A DNA stretch of 64,000 nt from Loxodes magnus (lineage: Eukaryota; Ciliophora; Karyorelictea; Loxodida; Loxodidae), in NCBI GenBank assembly GCA_946699065.1, contig CAMPDV010000098.1:496001-560000 (forward strand), read 5' to 3'. The notes beneath the pieces were generated by a model, which had not been told where the DNA came from, did no database searches, and was given only the letters and a program-made list of their open reading frames with translations. The number at the start of each line of letters is the position of its first letter. Positions within the stretch are counted from its first letter, which is position 1. Shown here one piece after another: positions 1,972 through 52,692 of this stretch. A program made the position numbers and the translations under genes.

Positions 1972-3594
1972 TCATTAAATGAATTTAACCATGTATGGCC
2001 CTTCTAAATGATACCCTAGCTTTGCATAATATCCTCTTGTTCCAACTCCACTTATTACTGCTATTTTAATACTTCCATGCTCTTCCTTTGCAATTCTTTC
2101 AGCTTCTTCCATTAGTAATGTTCCGTAGCCTTAATGCTAAAATTTATTAGGATCTCGAGAATGAATGGGTACTACTGATCCATATACATGCAATTCTCTA
2201 ACCATAGAAACTTTTCCTTCTAATTCGGGTAAAAAGTTCTGAGTCAATTTTCTTAATCTTAGCATACCTATTAAAATATCTTATTCAGGGTCTTCATAGC
2301 TTAAAAATGTTTCCCATCCCTCATTAGCTGCATAGTCTCTTCTTATTAATTCGACTTTGTTATGATTTATTTACTACTTTGAATGAATTTCTGTAATTCC
2401 TACTTCTCTTGTTCTTACATCTCTACATTTGAATTTTAGTTCTGCCATTCTTTTTTCAACTAGCTCTCTTAAATTTCCATAGTCAACTCCAGAACTTACA
2501 AGTGGCATTGGAATATCTCTTTGAATTCTGTAAATTCTGACCCATGGTGGTACTTATTCTAAGCATTTTGCTAATAAATCAACTAAAAAATCAGGATGAT
2601 AATTCTTATATTGCCCTTGTTACCACATCTAGTATAATCCTGTTCCTCTAATTACTAAAGTAGGATATACTTTCAATCCATCAGCTCGAAAAGCAGGATT
2701 TTAAAAGAATTCTTTGAAGCTTCATATATCTCTTTCGAATCCCATTTTAGGCAAGTCAGGCATCATATGTGCTATTACTTTAAATCCAGCTTCCTTACTA
2801 TTCTAAAAGCATTCTTTCACTGCTTCAACTGTATGACCACGATTAGTATCCCTAGCAATATCCTCAAAAATAGACTAAACGCCAATTTCAAGTCTAGTGC
2901 AACCATATTATAGCATATCTTATATCTATTTCTTCTTACAAAAGTCAGGTCGTGTTTCAATAGTAATTCCGATGCATTTTTATCTAGATTATTCAGAGTA
3001 TCTCACTGCTTCTTCTATATTTTTTGAAATATGTCCACTAAGAACATCATGCAGATTCCTAATAAAAAGGTCTCTATAATCAGGAGCAAGAGACATAAAA
3101 GTACCTCCCATAATGATATATTCTACTTTATCTGTTGAATGTCCTAGTTTCTAAAATTATAGGATTCTGTCTTTTGCTTGTATAAAACTATCATATCTTG
3201 CTCTTATCGCTCTCAAACTAGTTGGTTCATAACCAGTATAACTTTAACTTGAATATGTAAAATCACTATCAGGTCCTCCAGGACAGTAAACACAAATAGC
3301 TCCAGTAGTATATAAATGAGGACATCTGTGAGGTTTAGACATCACTGCTACAACAGCTATTCCACTTGCAGTTCTAACAGGTTTTGCTTTCAAAAGTGGT
3401 ATCAACTTATCTTTATATTCCGCAGGGATTGCGGCAATAATATCACACTTCTTAGGAACAGTTGACAAATGATACTTTCTAGACAACGAATATTTTAATT
3501 TTGAAAGGCTAACTTTCTTATTTTTTTCTATTGCTTAAAGTAAGTTTTGCACAATTTCCGAGATGCACTTAAGAGTTGAGACAGAATTATCCAT
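1972..3594 (-). CDS. ELP3: Elongator complex catalytic subunit Elp3
   Basis: A 540-aa protein, normal length for the family, intronless and ending at TGA (1972-1974) with residues KFIQ. Elp3 is the radical-SAM/acetyltransferase subunit of Elongator, which makes cm5 modifications on wobble uridines of tRNA. The radical-SAM [4Fe-4S] motif is C91-x9-C101-x2-C104 within [20 protein letters not shown]. The conserved '[12 protein letters not shown]', 'LEIGVQS', '[11 protein letters not shown]' and '[10 protein letters not shown]' blocks follow. The C-terminal GNAT domain (about residues 385-540) shows '[10 protein letters not shown]', '[16 protein letters not shown]' and '[16 protein letters not shown]'. 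The Met at 3594 gives the usual short N-terminal region. All Trp codons I checked here are TGG. Stand-alone gene, convergent with its left neighbour and divergent from the TTL-like gene. Confidence 0.97.
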
Positions 3595-4794: not shown

Positions 4795-6460
4795 ATGGGG
4801 AAAAAGGTAATCATCTTACTAGCAATCTCAGTCGCCTTTATTATTGCATTTTCCTTATTAATGTTTACTAATTCATAGTAACAATAGTAAAGCAGTCTCT
4901 TTGATATTTAGATGCATTAATAGAGATAATAAATATGAAACAAGTTTAAAAATAACTCAAAGTCTAAGGCCTGAAAAAAGCCTAAAATGATAATATCTTA
5001 AGAAAGTGAAGAGAATAAGAAACCTAAATAAACTAAATCTTGGAATAAGGAAAATTAAATGATTAAAATGGCTTCTTTTAGAAAGAGCAACCCATCTGGC
5101 TATAGAGGAATCACGAAGTTTCTCGATTTTGAGTAGGACTATTGCTAAAAGGTGCACTATTTTAGATAGCAAAATCCTATAAAAGTTAACAAAAGCTCTT
5201 TACTGCCCATTAAAGAACAGTAAATAATTTTAACAGACTATCATAAGAATATTCCAGGCTAAGTATTTAAGAACTATCAGAATATTTTTGAATAGATGAA
5301 AGCTTATGGAGAAAGCAGAATCAAAGAATAAACTGAAGAAAAGCAAGATTTATTAGCATTACCCCCTGATGTTCTTTTCTTCTTTCCAAATGGAAAATAT
5401 AGAACTGATTTATGGATTGAAAATAAAACATATGCATGTAGATGGTAAAGAGCTGAAAAAAGCTTAACTGGAGGCGGTTTAACTTCAAAAATGAACGTAA
5501 AGTCAATGGTTTAAAATTATGAAAATTAGCTATCTTGAATAAAAAAATCGCATTGCTTTGACAAAGATAAATATACACCAGAACAATACAAATTAGAGAA
5601 CAAAGAAGACTGTTTATCTTTTTTCTAAAAAATGGCTGATAAATAATAAGAAGACTTTAATTTGGTTTAATGAATGCTCAAAGGAGAAGGACATCGTGGA
5701 GAAAAAATATAAATTCTGGACTGAAACTTATTTAACTAACTAAGTAAAAACTATAGTAATGGAAAATTATGTGGCAAGATACATGGAAAATACTCATTGG
5801 CCTAAAAATATATTCATAATCCTAAGTTGCTTTAAGGACACAAATTTGATATGAGAGTTTATTTATAAATTGCAAATAGAGAACCTTTGATTGCTCTATA
5901 TTATCCTGGATATATAAGATTGGGGATTACTAAATATAGTCAAAAATCTTAAGATGTAAGGATTATTTTAATTTATGTAGTTGTGAACACATCTCACACA
6001 TTAGCCTTTGAACAAAACAGGATATAATTTGACTGAAACAGACTGGACCTTTGAAGAACTAATATAGAAATTCACAGTTTATACTAGAGAGGAATGAAAC
6101 TAAATTGACAGGTAAATAATGCAAAAGCTACTTCATCTTGTTTTAATGAATAACAAGAACTTAAAGAAAGTTCAGAACACCACATTCGCTATATATGGAA
6201 TAGACTTTGTTTTAGATGACTCTGATAATATTTGGTTTATCGAAAGTAATGCAGGACCAAGTATTAAGACAGATAAGCCAGGGAAGTTTTAGCTTTAATA
6301 CTCAATGTTTTCATAAATGGTTGATATTTAGTTTATCCTACTAGCAGAATAGAGAATAGACAGATATTTATAGACGAGTTAATGGAAACTTCTCTATGAT
6401 GAAACTAAAGAAGGAAGTCAAAGATATGGAGGGTTGTTTACCGAGGACTGTTTCATTTGA
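4795..6460 (+). CDS. tubulin-tyrosine-ligase-like (TTLL) protein with N-terminal membrane anchor
   Basis: A 546-aa protein in two exons (4795-5955, 5981-6460). TTLL enzymes are ATP-grasp ligases that add Tyr, Glu or Gly to protein tails. The core is clear: 'GHKFDMRVYLQIAN', 'YPGYIRLG', then 'THLTHQPLNKTG' (family HLTN...NK motif), 'YGIDFVLDDSDNIWFIESNAG' type ATP/Mg site and a basic tail. The HLT motif only forms after removal of a 25-nt GT-AG intron. Residues 5-28 are a strong hydrophobic helix after MGKK, a signal peptide or signal anchor, which is unusual because most TTLLs are cytosolic. I end the gene at TGA 6458-6460; reading it as Trp would add about 65 weakly convincing residues. Trp near the proposed end is written TGG. 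Whether it modifies tubulin or a lumenal protein cannot be told. Confidence 0.9.
5956..5980 (+). other. 25-nt spliceosomal intron in the TTLL gene
   Basis: Starts GTAAG and ends TGTAG. Its removal joins two frames and creates the conserved 'DLWTHLT' stretch. Without splicing the TTL motif is broken. Confidence 0.85.
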
Positions 6461-10918: not shown

Positions 10919-12709
10919 TCAGCTCACGTTGTTACCAAACTGTTCTATGGAGTTTTTAAGAAGTGTTATTTATTATTCCAACATCTCTTCACTTTACTTC
11001 TGCTATAGGAATTCAAAGTTTTATTTAAACCTAATTTTAAATTTTTCTCTCATAGAAATTTAAGTAACTTGCTTGCAATCTTAGTATAAAGCGTGGTTTA
11101 TTTGAGAGCTTAAGACTGGAGGCTTGAGAATTTCAATTTAACTTTTGATTTAGTTTGTAATTTTAGTTCTTCCAGAAGGTGCAGCAATAACAGTTTTTGC
11201 AAGTGTTTTAGAATTATCTGCAGTATCCTATATTGAACCTTGCATTTGAATCTAATCTTGTAGTTTTTCTTTTTAATTATAGCTTTCGTTAGTCTTTATC
11301 GTTTCATTTTGCTAGTTTTTTTCAGAAGAAGAAAACTCTTTAGATGATTGAAAAGAGACAGCATTTTCTTCTTAAGAAGTTTCTGGAGACTAGTTATAGT
11401 TATCTTTATCGTTATCTTCCTCTTTTTGTTCTTCAAATTCTATTAATTACATATTGCTGTTATCCTAATCTTCCTTAGTAGCTGGTAATAATAATAATCT
11501 TACCTATTTACTTGACACTTAAAATCTCCGAGTGATCTACTTCTACTACATGCTCACCTTTATGAGTTTTTAACATGATCACGGCATTTTCTTATACCAT
11601 GTGATCCTTTAAATATTAAGTTTCTCTTTCTTGTCTTAATCTTTTTAAACTAGAGGGAGCTAATTCTTATACTGATAAATTGCATAAAGTAGATGGACTT
11701 AGTTGACCTAATGCAACTTAAGCTCTTAGCTCTGTATTTTTGGGATCACTCAAATTAGCATGTAAAGCCCTGCATTTTTTCATATACAGTTAGTCAGTTT
11801 TATCATTATGTTAGATATAGACATTGCTTTCAATTTCCATAGCAAGGTCTCTAGCAGAGGTAGTCTATTATATTAAACCCTGCTAATCATTTACTTTTAT
11901 CTCTTCTATTGCAAGTTCTAAGGACATTTGAAAATTATCAATAATTTACTATCTTTTAAGTCCTTCTTTAGAGGAAGTACTTCTAAACATTTCTCTCTAT
12001 CTAGTTAGCGCGTTATCAATATCTTCCAGTCTTTTGGATGCTTCTTCACTTAATTCGTATTTCTAGTATTTATTCTATTCCTTCTTGCTTTAATTTGCTG
12101 AGCTGGCTTTTTAAAGAGATGTGATATAATTACCTGAACTGTTCAGTTTTCTTTTTTTAGTAATTTATTCTCCTATTTCATTACCGCAGTTGCAATGATC
12201 CTTCTTCATGAGGTTTAGACAGTCAATATGAAATGCGAAGCTACATTTTTCGCAGTTAACAGTTTTTATATCAGGGTTAAATGGTTACTTACAAAAGCAT
12301 ATTAAAGGGATTGTAGGACTAAACTTACCACTACTTATCTCATACTATTACCTTCAAACAAATGTATTCTCTAAATCCTTTTCCTAATCTTGTAGTCTCA
12401 AGTCTTGATAAGTTGGAGTATCAACAACTCTACAAAGGGAAATAACCTCAGACTTCAAAAAGTTCTTCTGCTGTGGAGGATCTGTCTTGTATACTTCGTT
12501 TTTTGCGTTATAAGCATGTCTACCAACTAAATACCATTAAAAATTAAAAAGTTAATTAAAACAAAAAACGTACGTTGAGTGTCTTCTGGATAAAAGAAAA
12601 CCTTTACTCGTATGGAGTCATTTGAAACTTCTATGACTTCACCTACGATAGGTTTTCCTGTGGGATTTTAAACTAAAACAAACTCTCCTAAATGATATTG
12701 ATTTTCCAT
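10919..12709 (-). CDS. BAH-PHD-TFS2M chromatin/transcription protein
   Basis: A 573-aa protein in three exons (12709-12574, 12526-11504, 11481-10919), ending at TGA. An N-terminal BAH domain (about 5-110; 'YHLGEFVLV...GEVIEV', 'FFYPEDTQLGRHAYNAKNEVY') is followed by a PHD finger: C122, C124, C137, C140, H145, C148, C157, C159. A TFIIS central domain (TFS2M, about 237-355: 'SARDLAMEIESNVY', 'KKCRALHANLSDPKN', 'LRAQVALGQLSP') comes next, then an acidic S/Q-rich linker and a charged tail. BAH and PHD modules usually read nucleosomal marks, and TFS2M binds RNA polymerase II, so a role coupling histone marks to transcription is likely. BAH-PHD and PHD-TFS2M proteins are known in plants and other eukaryotes. 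Both introns (47 and 22 nt) are needed to keep frame. Confidence 0.9.
11482..11503 (-). other. 22-nt intron in the BAH-PHD gene
   Basis: On the minus strand it starts GTAAG and ends ACCAG. It switches into the acidic 'ATKEDQDNSN' frame; the unspliced frame becomes Arg/Gln-rich nonsense. Confidence 0.8.
12527..12573 (-). other. 47-nt intron in the BAH-PHD gene
   Basis: On the minus strand it starts GTACG and ends TTTAG. Splicing yields 'PEDTQLGRHAYNAKNE', a normal BAH sequence. Confidence 0.8.
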
Positions 12710-18142: not shown

Positions 18143-21100
18143 ATGCAATAGTAGTAAAGCTAAACGTAATAGCTTCCTAAAAATTATAAAAGGTTGCAAA
18201 AAGAACTGGAATAGATGAAGTAAAATGTACTTTTTGTAAAAGAAGTTCACACGAATAATCAGAATTTGGATGAATGGCTAGTGTCAATTGAAGTGGCATA
18301 GAATACTTAGTTTGCTGGTAAAATCTACACAGTTCAAATCAATTTTCCCTCAAATTATCCATTTAAACCTCCAAAGTTCTAAATAAATCCTCCTGTTTAG
18401 GGAGGAAATTTTTATAATCAAGGAAACTATTGAAATGAAAACTTACAAGATAGTTGAAATCCAGCATTAACATCGATAAGCATAATATAGTAGTTATATT
18501 AACATTTGACAGAGGAATTAATGCTAGATCCATCTAATGCTTAGAGATTTCAGTAAGAGTTTCAATAATTTGAAAAGAACAAGCCTCCTTATATTTCGAA
18601 CTTAGTCGTTAAAATACCTGATTAATATTAAGAATGGAATTTAGTTTTAGAAGGGCCTAACTTTACTCGATTCCATAATAAAAGATACTAGATGAATGTC
18701 ATATTACCTCCAAAATATCCAAAGCATCCTCCAGAAATTAGCTTCATTACTAGTATAAGCAGTGATAATGTTTCAGAATAAGGACAAATATATAATGATG
18801 TTTATTAAAGCAAGTGAAAGAGCTCTGGATATCAAATTTTGAAAAGTTTCGAACAAATTTATGAAGCTTTGAAATCAGAGGATATTGTAGATATAACCTA
18901 GAACTTTTATTGTAAGAATAAGGATACTGATGAAACTGTCCCTTTGAAACATCTTGATATTAACTTCGAAACATTTCCAGGCATGCTTATCTAGACTTCA
19001 AAATAGCTTTATGTAAATAGTGAGACAAAACCTATAGAAACCGAATATGTATTCCCAGTTGATAGTACAGCTGCTATTACTAAATTCTAAATCCAAACTA
19101 ATAGCAAAACTATAGAAGGTGAAATTGAAGAAAGATAATAAGCTGTTGAAACGTATTAAGATAAGATAGCTGAAGGTTAAACTGTTGCAATTACTGTTTA
19201 TGATGGTGATCGTTCATCTGATAGAATGACTTGTCATATAGGAAACATAGGGTAAGGAGAATAAATTTAAGTAAGCATTTAAGAAATAAAGCCAATAGTA
19301 GAAGAAGGAAATGCTTGGAGAGTTTTTCTACCTTCATCTTTAGTACCTAAATACGTATTAGCTAGAATTAACCACTAAGCTTTTAAATAAGCAGAATAAT
19401 TAAATAATCAGGAAGAGAATAAAAACGCATAAGAATAAATTGACCTTCCTACTGAATTTATAATTGCTGAAGAAGTTAATTATACTATTACTTATTAAGG
19501 TGTTATTAGGTCTAAAACTCCCATAGATTAGTTATAGTGTGTAACTCATTAAATATCAGTAGAATTCAATTAAGATAGAACAGAAGCAAGGATTTAGCTA
19601 CTATAAGAGAACTGCGTACCAGATTAAGATTTTATCCTTACATATACAACCAAAAATCAATCAGATTTTTAACTTCTCCTTTAAAAAAATTCATTGCTAG
19701 ATAGATATTCAACTTTGATTTCCTTTTGTCCTTAAATTCCATAAATTTAAGAAGAAAAAGGAGAATTCATATTTATTCTTGATAGGTCAGGTTCTATGAG
19801 CGGAAATAGAATGGAAATGGCAGTAGAATCAGCAGTTTTATTCCTTTAATCTCTTCCTACAGATTGCTATTTCAATATAATAAGTTTTGGATCTAACTAT
19901 ATTCCGCTATTCTAATAAAGTAAGTAATACTAGTAAAATACTTTGCAAGAAGCATAATCAAAAGTGAAGACTTTTTCAGCTGATTTAGGTGGAACTGAAA
20001 TTTTTGAGCCTTTGTAATGAATATACAATCAGAAACAAATAGAGGGTTATCCAAGATATCTATTTCTAATAACAGATGGCGAAGTATCTAATGAATAAGG
20101 AGTCATTAAAATGATTAAAGAAAAGACTGAATAAGGAAATGGTAGAGTTTGTGCTCTTGGAATTGGCTCAGGAGTTTCAACTTCTTTAATAAACAATGCA
20201 GCTTAAGAAGGAAAAGGAGTTGCATTTTTTGTTTAACAAGGAGAAAGAATATAAGCTAAAGTGATATCCGCTCTTAATAAAATGTATTAACCTTTTTTAT
20301 CAGATCTATCACTGAAATTATCAGAAGGTCTAACTCCTTTATTACTAGAATTAGATAAAGAAAAATATCAATTTATAAGTTAAGGAGAAAGAGTCATATT
20401 TATAACAACTTTCTAATCTACTGTAAAGAATGGAATCATTGAAGTGAATGCAAAATGTGGAAGTTAAGATATATAGATTTAAATAAGTGTCAATTTGGAT
20501 GAGTATGTAGAGGGTAATTAGCTTGAAAAATTAGCAGCTAAGTAAATAATAGAAAAGGTATAAAAAACTACCAAAGATAAAGAGGAAATTGTAAGATTAT
20601 CCAAACTGTACTAAATTCTTACGCATGAAACTGCTTTTATTGCTGTTGAAAAGAGGTAAGAAGCTTTAAAAGAACTTCCTGTTCTTAAAAAAATTCCTAT
20701 TAATGCTACTAAAGATTCTAAAAAATTTCAACCAAAATCTCTTCCTTAAAATTAGTAATCAGCAGTCAGTACTTAGTAAGGCGGTGGTGGTGGTGGAGGT
20801 GGAGGAAGCTCCGGATAAAGTTTTTTAAAAACGTTAACTGGAAAAACAATTACTATAGAACAAAATCCATGAATGACTGTTCTTGAATATAAGTAACAAA
20901 TATAAGACAAAGAAGGAATTCCTGTAGATTAAATAAGACTTGTCTTTGCTGGAAAATAATTAGAAGATAATAGAACTTTAGGAGATTATAACATCCAAAA
21001 AGAAAGTACTTTACATATGGTTTTAAGATTAAGAGGAGGACCTCCAGTTGAATAAGATCCATAGCCTACTGGACCTATGCGTCCATAAGGGAAATATAAG

Positions 21101-21511
21101 AAATAAAAAGAAAAATAAGTAAAGTAATAGCCTACTTAATAAACTTAGAGTCAATAATAATAATAGTAAGTTTAAGTATCAAATGAATATATGAAATTTG
21201 TATAATTACAGTAAGTATAAGGAAATTGGAATGAGTCGTAGGAGCTTTTTTCTCATCTTAACATATAAAAATAGGAATAATTATAAACTCCTGCGAATCT
21301 GCAAAGCAATATTTAAGCATGAATTACCATATTTATTCTAGTGATATTATAAGTGGATTATAGCAACGCATGCTAAGAATGGAAACTTGTTGATAAAAAG
21401 GCTAGAAAATGGCTACAACAAAGTGCCAATTTAAGCGAGTAGGAAGTTGAAGATTATGAAAAATAGGCTAAATTTATTTGGGAAGATCTAAAAAAATAGC
21501 CCAAGCCTTGA
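18143..21511 (+). CDS. two pseudo-E2 (UBC) folds + VIT + vWA + internal ubiquitin, VWA5A-like
   Basis: A 1122-aa intronless ORF. Domains: UBC fold 1 (about 10-145; '[12 protein letters not shown]', '[11 protein letters not shown]'); UBC fold 2 (about 150-245); VIT domain (about 265-400; '[14 protein letters not shown]'); vWA domain starting at D547 with intact MIDAS 'DRSGSMSG' and 'TDGEVS'; a glycine run; a complete ubiquitin at about 893-966 ending LRLRGG; a Q-rich linker; and a C-terminal segment ('FVQLQQVQGNW', '[15 protein letters not shown]') typical of VWA5A proteins. Both E2 active-site cysteines are gone: aligned on G-x-I-C-L-x6-W, position 97 is TGA (Trp) and position 217 is TAT (Tyr). 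Ubiquitin keeps L8, K48, K63 and the V70-G76 tail but has no Met1, and K29 is Gln. The last 65 codons use only TGG for Trp; TGA 21509-21511 is the stop. Function is inferred only: a ubiquitin scaffold or adaptor. Confidence 0.93.
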
Positions 21512-48245: not shown

Positions 48246-49215
48246 ATATGGTTTTCTTAGGAAAAAATAAAAAAATGGAAGGAATCAAAAGAGGCTTCTA
48301 CATCACCTCCAAAAAGTTGGAGAGGAAACCTGAATCCAATCTTGGATAGTCTTCTTACCCTTAACCCTAACCTTTTTCTTAATTCTAACAATCTGAAGAA
48401 GAACAGAAACAAACTCAGAAGACAACACATGAGATAACTAAATCTCAGAAGAGAAGCCCAGAAAGCAGATGAAGTTTGCTCTGCACCAGGAGGTCTCAAA
48501 GTTCAATCCTTCTGGTCAGATGAGCATGGAACAGCTCGTAAAAGTGGTACTAAACCTCCAGGAAGAGGTTAGGAAACTGAGAAAGGACAATGAGAAACTG
48601 ATGGAAAAACTCAACCTAGCGGAAGGAATAGAATCCAGACTTATGTCCTAAGAAAGAGAACTAAGCGCTTTCTGAAACATATCTTAAGACCAGAGTAGCT
48701 AATCCTAAAATTAGCTTCAGAAACAATCTGATATGAGTATTAGACTGGAAATACTAGAAAATAAATTAGATGAACAAAGGGGAGATCCAATGATGATTGA
48801 AGAGATTAATAGGAAGACTAAGGTTAAACTTCAAAAAGTAGTGAAGAAATGTTACTACTGCAATTCGACAGAACACTTATGAAGACGCTGTAAAGAATTC
48901 CAAAATTTCGAGACGTAGTACTGGAATAAATAAAGAACCATACAAGCACAGTAGAGGAAGAAAAAACAAATGTATTAGAGACAAATAAGAGAAAGATTAT
49001 ACTTAAATGAATAAGGATACATTTACAAGAGAATATTTAATTAGAAATAAGGCTAGATCTGGAAAGGACAAGAGTAATGGGAGGAGAGAGGAGTAGAGAC
49101 ATCTAAAAGTTTATTTTTAACACTGGAGCAATCTGGTGTCCAGCATGAAGAGGTGAAAATCCTCGAAAATTACTAAACTTAATTTATCCTATTATTATTA
49201 TATGGTTTTCTTAGG
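48246..49215 (+). mobile_element. ORF1-only retroelement with 16-bp target-site duplication
   Basis: Flanked by direct repeats ATATGGTTTTCTTAGG at 48246-48261 and 49200-49215, a target-site duplication. The body (48262-49199) has an ORF1 starting MEGIKRGFYITSKK (48275); one frameshift lies before 48469. From there it runs MKFALHQEVSKFNPSG, a coiled coil ('LNLQEEVRKLRKDNEKLMEK'), the family block 'ESRLMSQERELSAFWNISQ' and a perfect zinc knuckle 'CYYCNSTEHLWRRC'. The 3' end has the small hairpin GAGG-TGAAAAT-CCTC and an ATT tail. No RT or endonuclease: a half-LINE type non-autonomous element. Confidence 0.85.
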
Positions 49216-51691: not shown

Positions 51692-52692
51692 ATTTAGATA
51701 GTTAAAAATGGTTGAAGGTTTCAAATCAGGCTTCTATACCACCTCTTTCTAAGCCAAAAAGGAAGGGAGGAAGCAAGAAAGCAATTCTTAATAATCTTAA
51801 CAATCTTCTCTATCACAACCTTAACCAACACTGAACTAAAAACTTGGAATCTAACAAAACGAACGAAAGCCAACCTTGAAGAATATACACACGGAAACTC
51901 CAACCTCAAGCGAGAAACCGAGGAAACAGATGAAGTCTGTTCTCCACCAGGAGATATCAGAGTTCAACCCTTCTGGCCAGATGAACATGGAGTAGCTCAT
52001 CAAAGTGGTACTGAACCTCCAGGAAGAGGTCAAGAGATTGAAGAAGGACAATGATATGCTGATGGCAAAGCTAGACCTAGTAGAAGGAATTGAGTCAAGA
52101 CTTATATCCTAGGAAAGAGATCTTAACGCCTTATGGAATATCTCACAAAGTCAGACTAACGAATCCTAAAATTAGCTTTAGAAACAGACTGAATTGGATA
52201 ACAGATTCAGAAGAGTAGAAGAGAAATTTTAAACTTTTAAGAAAGAGTAAAGCGAAACTGGAGCTATACAAATGGAAATCGAAGCCTAGAAAGAGTAAAC
52301 AAATCAAGGAGAATAATTCAAAATAAAAAAGAAATATTTCTGCTGTGGAAGCGTATGACATTTTTATCGGAAGTGTTATAAATTCTAATAGAAATAAAGA
52401 AACTATTGGATAAAAGAACAACAAAAGAAGAAAAAAGAAGAAGCAAGAATGAAAAGAATGTATTGCAACCCGGATGGTTCAATATACAAGATCAAGATGG
52501 AACCATATCAAGTAAAAGGAAGGAAAACCTGGATAAACCCAAGTTTCTAATCTCGCTAAAATTGGACGTCCCAAACATTTATATTTAACAGCAGGGAGCA
52601 TGAACTACTGTCCTCCTGACGGGGTTGGAAATCCCTAAAACGGAAAACTCAAAATTAATATTATTATTATTATTATTATTTAGATAGTTAAA
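51692..52692 (+). mobile_element. ORF1-only retroelement with 15-bp target-site duplication
   Basis: Direct repeats ATTTAGATAGTTAAA at 51692-51706 and 52678-52692 bracket the insert. Unit B carries the same sequence once, uninterrupted, so this is a filled site against an empty site. The body ends with a hairpin (GGGGTTGGAAATCCC) and about eight ATT units. No reverse transcriptase or endonuclease, so it was mobilised in trans. Confidence 0.92.
51708..52619 (+). CDS. retroelement ORF1 protein, intact (coiled coil + zinc-knuckle-like)
   Basis: Intact 303-aa ORF from ATG 51708 to TGA 52617-52619, just 3' of the target-site duplication. MVEGFKSGFYTTSF starts it; a Q/S-rich region, the core 'LIKVVLNLQEEVKRLKKDN' coiled coil, 'ESRLISQERDLNALWNISQ', and the knuckle-like 'YFCCGSVWHFYRKC' follow. 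In the knuckle the first Cys is Tyr, though an adjacent Cys could substitute. A basic K/R-rich tail should bind RNA. Composition is markedly less AT-rich than the flanks. ORF1 proteins of LINEs coat element RNA; this one presumably needs ORF2 from an autonomous relative such as those at 35-47 kb. Confidence 0.85.

Follow-up and report, generated by a model that had tools for sequence, protein, structure and literature searches.

The window analysed here is a stretch of 64,000 nucleotides from Loxodes magnus (G000:C98:496001-560000; positions without a contig name refer to it), and the assembly searched comprises 705,730,643 bases. For this ciliate, the published macronuclear assembly is reported at 706 Mbp, with code 27 as genetic code (PMC11441545). 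Read with table 27, positions 18143-21511 of the window form a single frame of 1122 residues, closed by a TGA stop at 21509-21511. From N- to C-terminus, the encoded protein consists of two domains resembling ubiquitin-conjugating enzymes (E2s), VIT, vWA, a glycine linker, ubiquitin, a Pro/Gln-rich linker and a VWA5A-type C-terminal domain (CTD). An earlier sequence-only reading had proposed one polypeptide with its domains in this order. Both proposals hold, since the frame is continuous and a paralogous locus, L009, repeats the order.

All four Pfam families that the sequence-only reading had named for a search (UQ_con, VIT, VWA and ubiquitin) match the protein above the curated gathering cut-offs, vWA through VWA_3. 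UQ_con matches in two stretches (119.8 bits) and ubiquitin at residues 894-964 (85.5 bits); the remaining matches are given in Table 1. The CTD has no match in Pfam and is recognized by its paralogues: phmmer aligns it with the CTDs of L009, L010, L012, L013, L014 and L016 and of 14 of the 18 loci without internal ubiquitin. Its "VWA5A-type" label derives from these Loxodes C-termini and from the published placement of the CTD in VWA5A/Vwa1 (PMC10539598). The protein has the hallmarks of the VIT-vWA family, namely VIT followed by vWA and a metal ion-dependent adhesion site (MIDAS) of the form DxSxS/T/D. This site had been described as intact, and its residues (DRSGSM, T, DG) are indeed invariant in all 15 aligned VIT-vWA rows, an alignment outside which L011 and L015 lie. 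Searched against the PDB, the VIT-vWA part matched nothing at E 0.01.

Table 1. Features of the 1122-residue frame, in window coordinates
Feature	Position	Strand	Evidence or remark
Complete frame of 1122 aa with its TGA stop	18143..21511	+	Table 27; same order in L009; dN/dS 0.22
E2-like domain 1, residues 14-142	18182..18568	+	Pfam UQ_con; best PDB match UBC4 8j1r, E 6e-14
TGA codon 97, read as Trp, in the E2 column of the catalytic Cys	18431..18433	+	TAA (Gln) in L009
E2-like domain 2, residues 143-252	18569..18898	+	Second UQ_con stretch; PDB 3e95, E 9e-15
VIT, residues 269-379	18947..19279	+	Pfam PF08487, E 1e-21, 77.4 bits; multi-row alignment
vWA, residues 542-694	19766..20224	+	Pfam VWA_3, E 2e-25, 90.1 bits
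MIDAS in vWA: DRSGS 547-551, T618, D645	within 19766..20224	+	Alignment columns
Hybrid-1b/helical/VITpt2-like region, residues 701-870	20243..20752	+	Paralogue alignment; names by analogy with PMC10539598
Gly-rich linker, residues 871-890	20753..20812	+	Little conservation against L009 (aa identity 0.40)
Internal ubiquitin, residues 891-966, RLRGG then Pro-Pro	20813..21040	+	Pfam ubiquitin, E 2e-24
Pro/Gln-rich linker, residues 967-1020	21041..21202	+	Translation; codon alignment with L009
VWA5A-type CTD, residues 1021-1122	21203..21508	+	phmmer to paralogue CTDs

The paralogue L009 and the reading of TGA

A whole-genome search found L009 at G000:C98:693974-697330, 180 kb from the window gene and 68% identical to it there. 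The two loci sit on one 816-kb contig. In a whole-genome search with the two E2-like domains as query (all 85 candidates scored), only the window gene and L009 gave matches that span both domains. Neither blastn nor six-frame blastp shows any similarity between the flanks of L009 (2.9 kb upstream, 2.1 kb downstream) and the window. Assembly error, which might have joined a UBC gene, a VWA5A gene and a ubiquitin gene and had been named among the outcomes that could overturn the earlier proposal, was examined and rejected. It is unlikely because the same order recurs in L009, between unrelated flanks, on the same contig.

Over 1121 shared codons the two proteins are 75% identical, with 0.73 synonymous (dS) and 0.16 nonsynonymous (dN) substitutions per site and an overall dN/dS of 0.22 (bootstrap 0.18-0.26). 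By part, dN/dS is 0.26 in the first and 0.18 in the second E2-like domain, 0.25 in VIT with its flank, 0.11 in vWA, 0.20 in the helical region, 0.086 in ubiquitin, 0.21 in the second linker and 0.07 in the CTD, where dS (2.8) is close to saturation. The glycine linker stands at 1.29, with a wide bootstrap range (0.42-3.82). In the VIT part dS is just 0.25, and gene conversion between the two copies may account for this. Judged from the comparison of the copies, the architecture is real, duplicated and under purifying selection.

The pair also bears on the genetic code. Six internal TGA codons of the window frame correspond in L009 to three TGA, one TGG, one TAA (Gln) and one CAA (Gln), and three further sites have TGG in the window frame and TGA in L009. 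TGA and TGG are thus exchanged at codons 45, 105, 165 and 1090. This exchange, at four codons other than codon 97, supports the reading of TGA as tryptophan in this gene, and the possibility that the internal TGA codons are true stops was rejected. In Loxodes, in-frame TAA and TGA are reported to be depleted ahead of true stops (PMC11441545). The 30 codons ahead of the final TGA of the window gene fit this expectation, with no in-frame TAA or TGA; L009 runs contrary to it, with four TAA among its final 20 codons and five among its final 30.

The E2-like pair and the internal ubiquitin

The sequence-only reading had described two E2-like folds. UQ_con finds both, with the qualification that both lack the catalytic cysteine and the HPN motif of active E2s. 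We aligned both domains of both copies with UBC4, with 3e95 (ubiquitin carrier protein) and with an ordinary Loxodes E2 (L127). In the catalytic-cysteine column, domain 1 has Trp97 in the window protein and Gln in L009, and domain 2 has Tyr in both copies (Tyr217 in the window protein, 18791-18793). HPN is replaced in all four domains, by GGN (window) and GTY (L009) in domain 1 and by SDN in domain 2 of either copy, and L127 retains both HPN and the cysteine. We rejected selenocysteine or cysteine at TGA codon 97, since L009 encodes Gln (TAA) at this position and HPN is gone as well. Since cysteine and HPN are lost in both domains of both copies, the domains look catalytically dead and similar to ubiquitin E2 variants (UEVs), that is, E2 folds without catalytic residues, the fold being assigned here from the UQ_con match. 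Elsewhere in the genome, a coding stretch for an E2 domain forms a tandem array of at least 32 copies with a spacing of 716 bases (G000:C32:80341-102779, minus strand).

The internal ubiquitin, previously called complete, is full in length but diverged: it is identical to human ubiquitin at 56 of 76 positions and to Loxodes ubiquitin at 55 (21 differ), and its Met1 is replaced by Gly, or by Ser in L009. Fifteen derived substitutions are identical in the two built-in ubiquitins. The changes are distributed unevenly, with 12 of the 20 interior ones of the window ubiquitin lying in residues 15-29, a density that was reached within a 15-residue stretch in one of 20000 random placements. Among 13 residues that we take to form the Ile44 face, the sole change is I44V, and L8, V44, H68 and V70 are present there. 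Lys6, 11, 27, 33, 48 and 63 are retained and Lys29 is lost. Conservation of this domain is not due to recent copying from polyubiquitin, because its dS between the copies (0.64) is close to that of the whole gene (0.73).

At its C-terminal end the ubiquitin continues as RLRGG-PP in the window protein and ends as RLRGD in L009 (G76D), so neither copy offers the cleavable Gly76-X junction and Met1 of a processable precursor. Most deubiquitinating enzymes (DUBs) are described as cutting ubiquitin-X junctions with any X except proline (PMC3692480). Because of this exception and of the two junctions, both ubiquitins should, judged by their sequences, stay within the chain, neither removed nor conjugated.

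The ordinary ubiquitin of Loxodes occurs in fusions with a ribosomal protein, which we presume to be L40, and in large polyubiquitin-type arrays (150 of 854 candidates scored). Tandem arrays of the latter type lie at G000:C32:1232547-1288044 and on C537, C930, C1577 and C2553, often with a spacing of about 1.06 kb.

Ubiquitin-bearing VIT-vWA loci and the origin of the insert

The genome searches scored 41 of 885 and 48 of 740 candidates, and the family counts are therefore lower bounds. We examined 27 loci (the window gene and L009-L034), nine of which carry ubiquitin downstream of the vWA/helical part: the window gene, L009, a cluster of six genes within 67 kb (L010-L015, G000:C74:293270-359893) and L016 (G000:C104:316325-319162). 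A CTD match follows the ubiquitin in seven of the nine; it is missing in L011 and L015, whose MIDAS is also broken, as judged by eye. The C74 genes carry one to four ubiquitin units each. The first unit ends in GG-M in L010 and L012-L015 (RLRGG-M in three of them) and in GG-K in L011; later units, which no longer have GG, are more decayed. In L016, a ubiquitin-like domain precedes VIT, a ubiquitin with a GG-GF junction follows vWA, and a weak degenerate unit lies ahead of the CTD (E 7.5e-4).

The other 18 loci (L017-L034) have no ubiquitin at this place, and 14 of them run from vWA through a linker of variable length into the CTD. A ubiquitin hidden Markov model (HMM) that recovered the known units in L009-L016 found none in 17 of the 18 and nothing between vWA and CTD in any of them. 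The proposal that ubiquitin was inserted between the two domains is thereby supported, since most of the loci that lack it at this place (14 of 18) continue from vWA through a linker to the CTD. In the remaining locus, L019, a ubiquitin-like stretch (frame 0, about nt 5890-6105, HMM E 3e-19) lies roughly 1 kb beyond the CTD; it differs in frame from the VIT-vWA gene and probably belongs to a gene of its own.

A single origin of the insert across the nine loci is possible. In a VIT-vWA tree of 26 rows (L031 left out) all nine fall on one side of a branch with support of only 78/49. A tree of the ubiquitin units, with bootstrap values that had not yet stabilized, groups those of the window gene and L009 with that of L016 (88/78), apart from the C74 units. 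The fusion gains no support for a prokaryotic or viral origin. Scans with the VIT-vWA alignment gave at least 105 prokaryotic relatives (80 of them retained for analysis) and, in the viral collection, at least seven loci; all 87 relatives listed match vWA and 52 match VIT, and none has an E2, ubiquitin or CTD match at E < 1e-3. A search of viral contigs with the single protein as query found nothing.

In the neighbourhood of the window gene, Pfam identifies an ELP3 N-terminal/radical SAM frame (2722-3594, minus strand) and a TFIIS central domain (11433-12209, minus strand); 8 of 10 neighbouring frames tested have no Pfam match, and ARAGORN found no tRNA. Sequence just past the downstream end of the window (L035, 6484-7416) recurs inside it at 48269-49200 (96.6% over 933 bases) and, as a partial further copy, at 51896-52228 (77% over 333 bases).

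Possible role of a built-in ubiquitin

We suggest, as a tentative proposal that holds a little under half of our confidence, that the window protein is an intracellular VWA5A/Vwa1-like adaptor of the ubiquitin system which carries its own permanent ubiquitin. Its N-terminal arm would consist of the two dead UEV-like domains, and the VIT-vWA core would bind partners, perhaps through the MIDAS. The ubiquitin, predicted to be neither removable nor conjugatable, would be placed in the loop that tethers the helical CTD to the core. Ubiquitin readers would most likely bind its Ile44 face; the reader could be the UEV-like arm of the same protein, in cis or from another molecule, or an outside protein. 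Its altered face (residues 15-29) would pack against the host protein. Cycles of ubiquitin binding and release would then open or close the contact between vWA and CTD and so control whether the protein attaches to an E3 or a DUB complex. In the sequence, this proposal draws on the architecture, the paralogue, the loss of E2 residues, the Pro and Asp junctions, the kept Ile44 face and purifying selection; the cell location, DUB resistance, ubiquitin binding, the switch and the E3 or DUB partner are what we infer.

An adaptor with a ubiquitin-controlled vWA-CTD contact is suggested because of two analogies. In Dictyostelium, the F-box protein FbxwD and the cullin CulE are recovered by co-precipitation with Vwa1, whose CTD has been modelled as a helical bundle that docks on vWA via a long disordered loop, with a proposal of autoinhibition (PMC10539598). 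The window protein shares with VWA5A/Vwa1 a VIT, a vWA with MIDAS, a helical/VITpt2 region and a similarly placed CTD, and goes beyond them in its two dead N-terminal E2-like domains and in the ubiquitin in the pre-CTD loop; the text of section 22 of the Vwa1 account mentions neither addition (PMC10539598). The second analogy is BRE (BABAM2), composed of UEV-N, RWD and UEV-C, which binds the vWA protein MERIT40 (BABAM1) through UEV-C (PMC7692841, PMC5199339). The pair binds ubiquitin with a dissociation constant of about 20 uM (PMC7692841). BRCA1-A and BRISC, too, combine paired inactive E2 folds with vWA in ubiquitin signalling. The likeness is one of analogy: BRE and MERIT40 are two chains, RWD lies between the UEVs, and the cited parts of these accounts describe no VIT or ubiquitin domain.

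Several observations weigh against the adaptor proposal. The best sequence matches of the E2-like domains are active E2s (UBC4, 3e95) and no known UEVs. PF05743, the TSG101-type UEV family, is absent from the Pfam matches of the window protein and weak in L009 (24.6 bits against a cut-off of 27), and RWD is just over its cut-off in the window protein. Moreover, the first units of the six C74 genes (GG-M or GG-K) and the unit of L016 (GG-G) look cleavable, and permanence of ubiquitin would therefore be no rule for the whole family.

Among the alternatives, a built-in degradation signal is unlikely, though worth weighing. An uncleavable ubiquitin would direct the protein into the ubiquitin fusion degradation (UFD) route and give it a short half-life. 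The UFD pathway is described as degrading uncleavable N-terminal ubiquitin fusions (PMC3507821), and Lys48 and Lys63 are retained here; the ubiquitin of the window protein, however, is internal, with domains on either side, and it has lost Lys29. That changes cluster in residues 15-29 and that vWA, CTD and the E2-like domains are conserved suggests more than a degron. We likewise give little credence to a decoy that would compete with ubiquitinated proteins for ubiquitin readers and have no internal switch. The retained Ile44 face and the lost free or cleavable Gly-Gly end would suit it, but a decoy has no need of VIT-vWA, the CTD and two dead E2s, all of them at dN/dS 0.07-0.26.

A further idea, also improbable in our estimate, is that ubiquitin in this Loxodes family of VIT-vWA proteins is a structural latch connecting vWA with an autoinhibitory CTD. 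The latch would be cut by DUBs in the C74 genes and L016, where the core would be freed with a C-terminal ubiquitin, and would be uncuttable and read by the protein's own dead E2s in the window pair. If this is true, signal and reader are joined in one chain, without writer or eraser.

More doubtful is the processed precursor, in which a DUB cut after ubiquitin would separate vWA from CTD or free ubiquitin. Natural linear fusions (polyubiquitin, ubiquitin with other proteins) are reported to be processed in this way (PMC3692480), Loxodes has such copies, and the GG-M, GG-K and GG-GF junctions of the C74 genes and L016 would be compatible with it. The sequence-only reading had considered a precursor that releases ubiquitin; with Pro after Gly-Gly in the window protein, G76D in L009 and Met1 gone in both, this finds no support. 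Processing is disfavoured for the window gene but might occur in the C74 genes and L016. Finally, a recent accidental fusion or a decaying gene without function is very improbable, for although decay occurs in the family (L011 and L015, two of the nine ubiquitin-bearing loci), the window gene and L009 are constrained overall and also in ubiquitin, where dN/dS is 0.086, and have kept all domains through a dS of about 0.7.

The architecture is assembled from known parts, and their combination is new as far as we have searched. Natural ubiquitin fusions with N-terminal, C-terminal or internal ubiquitin are known in Bigelowiella and Guillardia; their partners include actin, NiSOD, RING, HMG-box and others, and the consulted text of that account contains no vWA or Willebrand (PMC6332867). 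PARP4 has VIT-vWA and some PARPs (fungal PARP-UBCc) carry E2-fold domains, but the cited part of the PARP account describes no protein that joins UBC with VIT-vWA and no built-in ubiquitin (PMC2964712). Among the papers that our literature search covered, mostly open-access ones outside bioRxiv, none came up that describes a VIT-vWA protein joined to ubiquitin or to a pair of E2-like domains.

Ubiquitin normally acts by being attached and removed. Here it is fixed inside a protein, with one face altered and the reader face kept, and the window protein thus represents a natural test of ubiquitin as a permanent domain, paired with dead E2 domains. The earlier tie of VWA5A/Vwa1 to ubiquitin that we found in print consists of the Dictyostelium co-precipitation and fragment-expression work (PMC10539598). 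The Loxodes genes would tie this poorly understood family closer to ubiquitin signalling.

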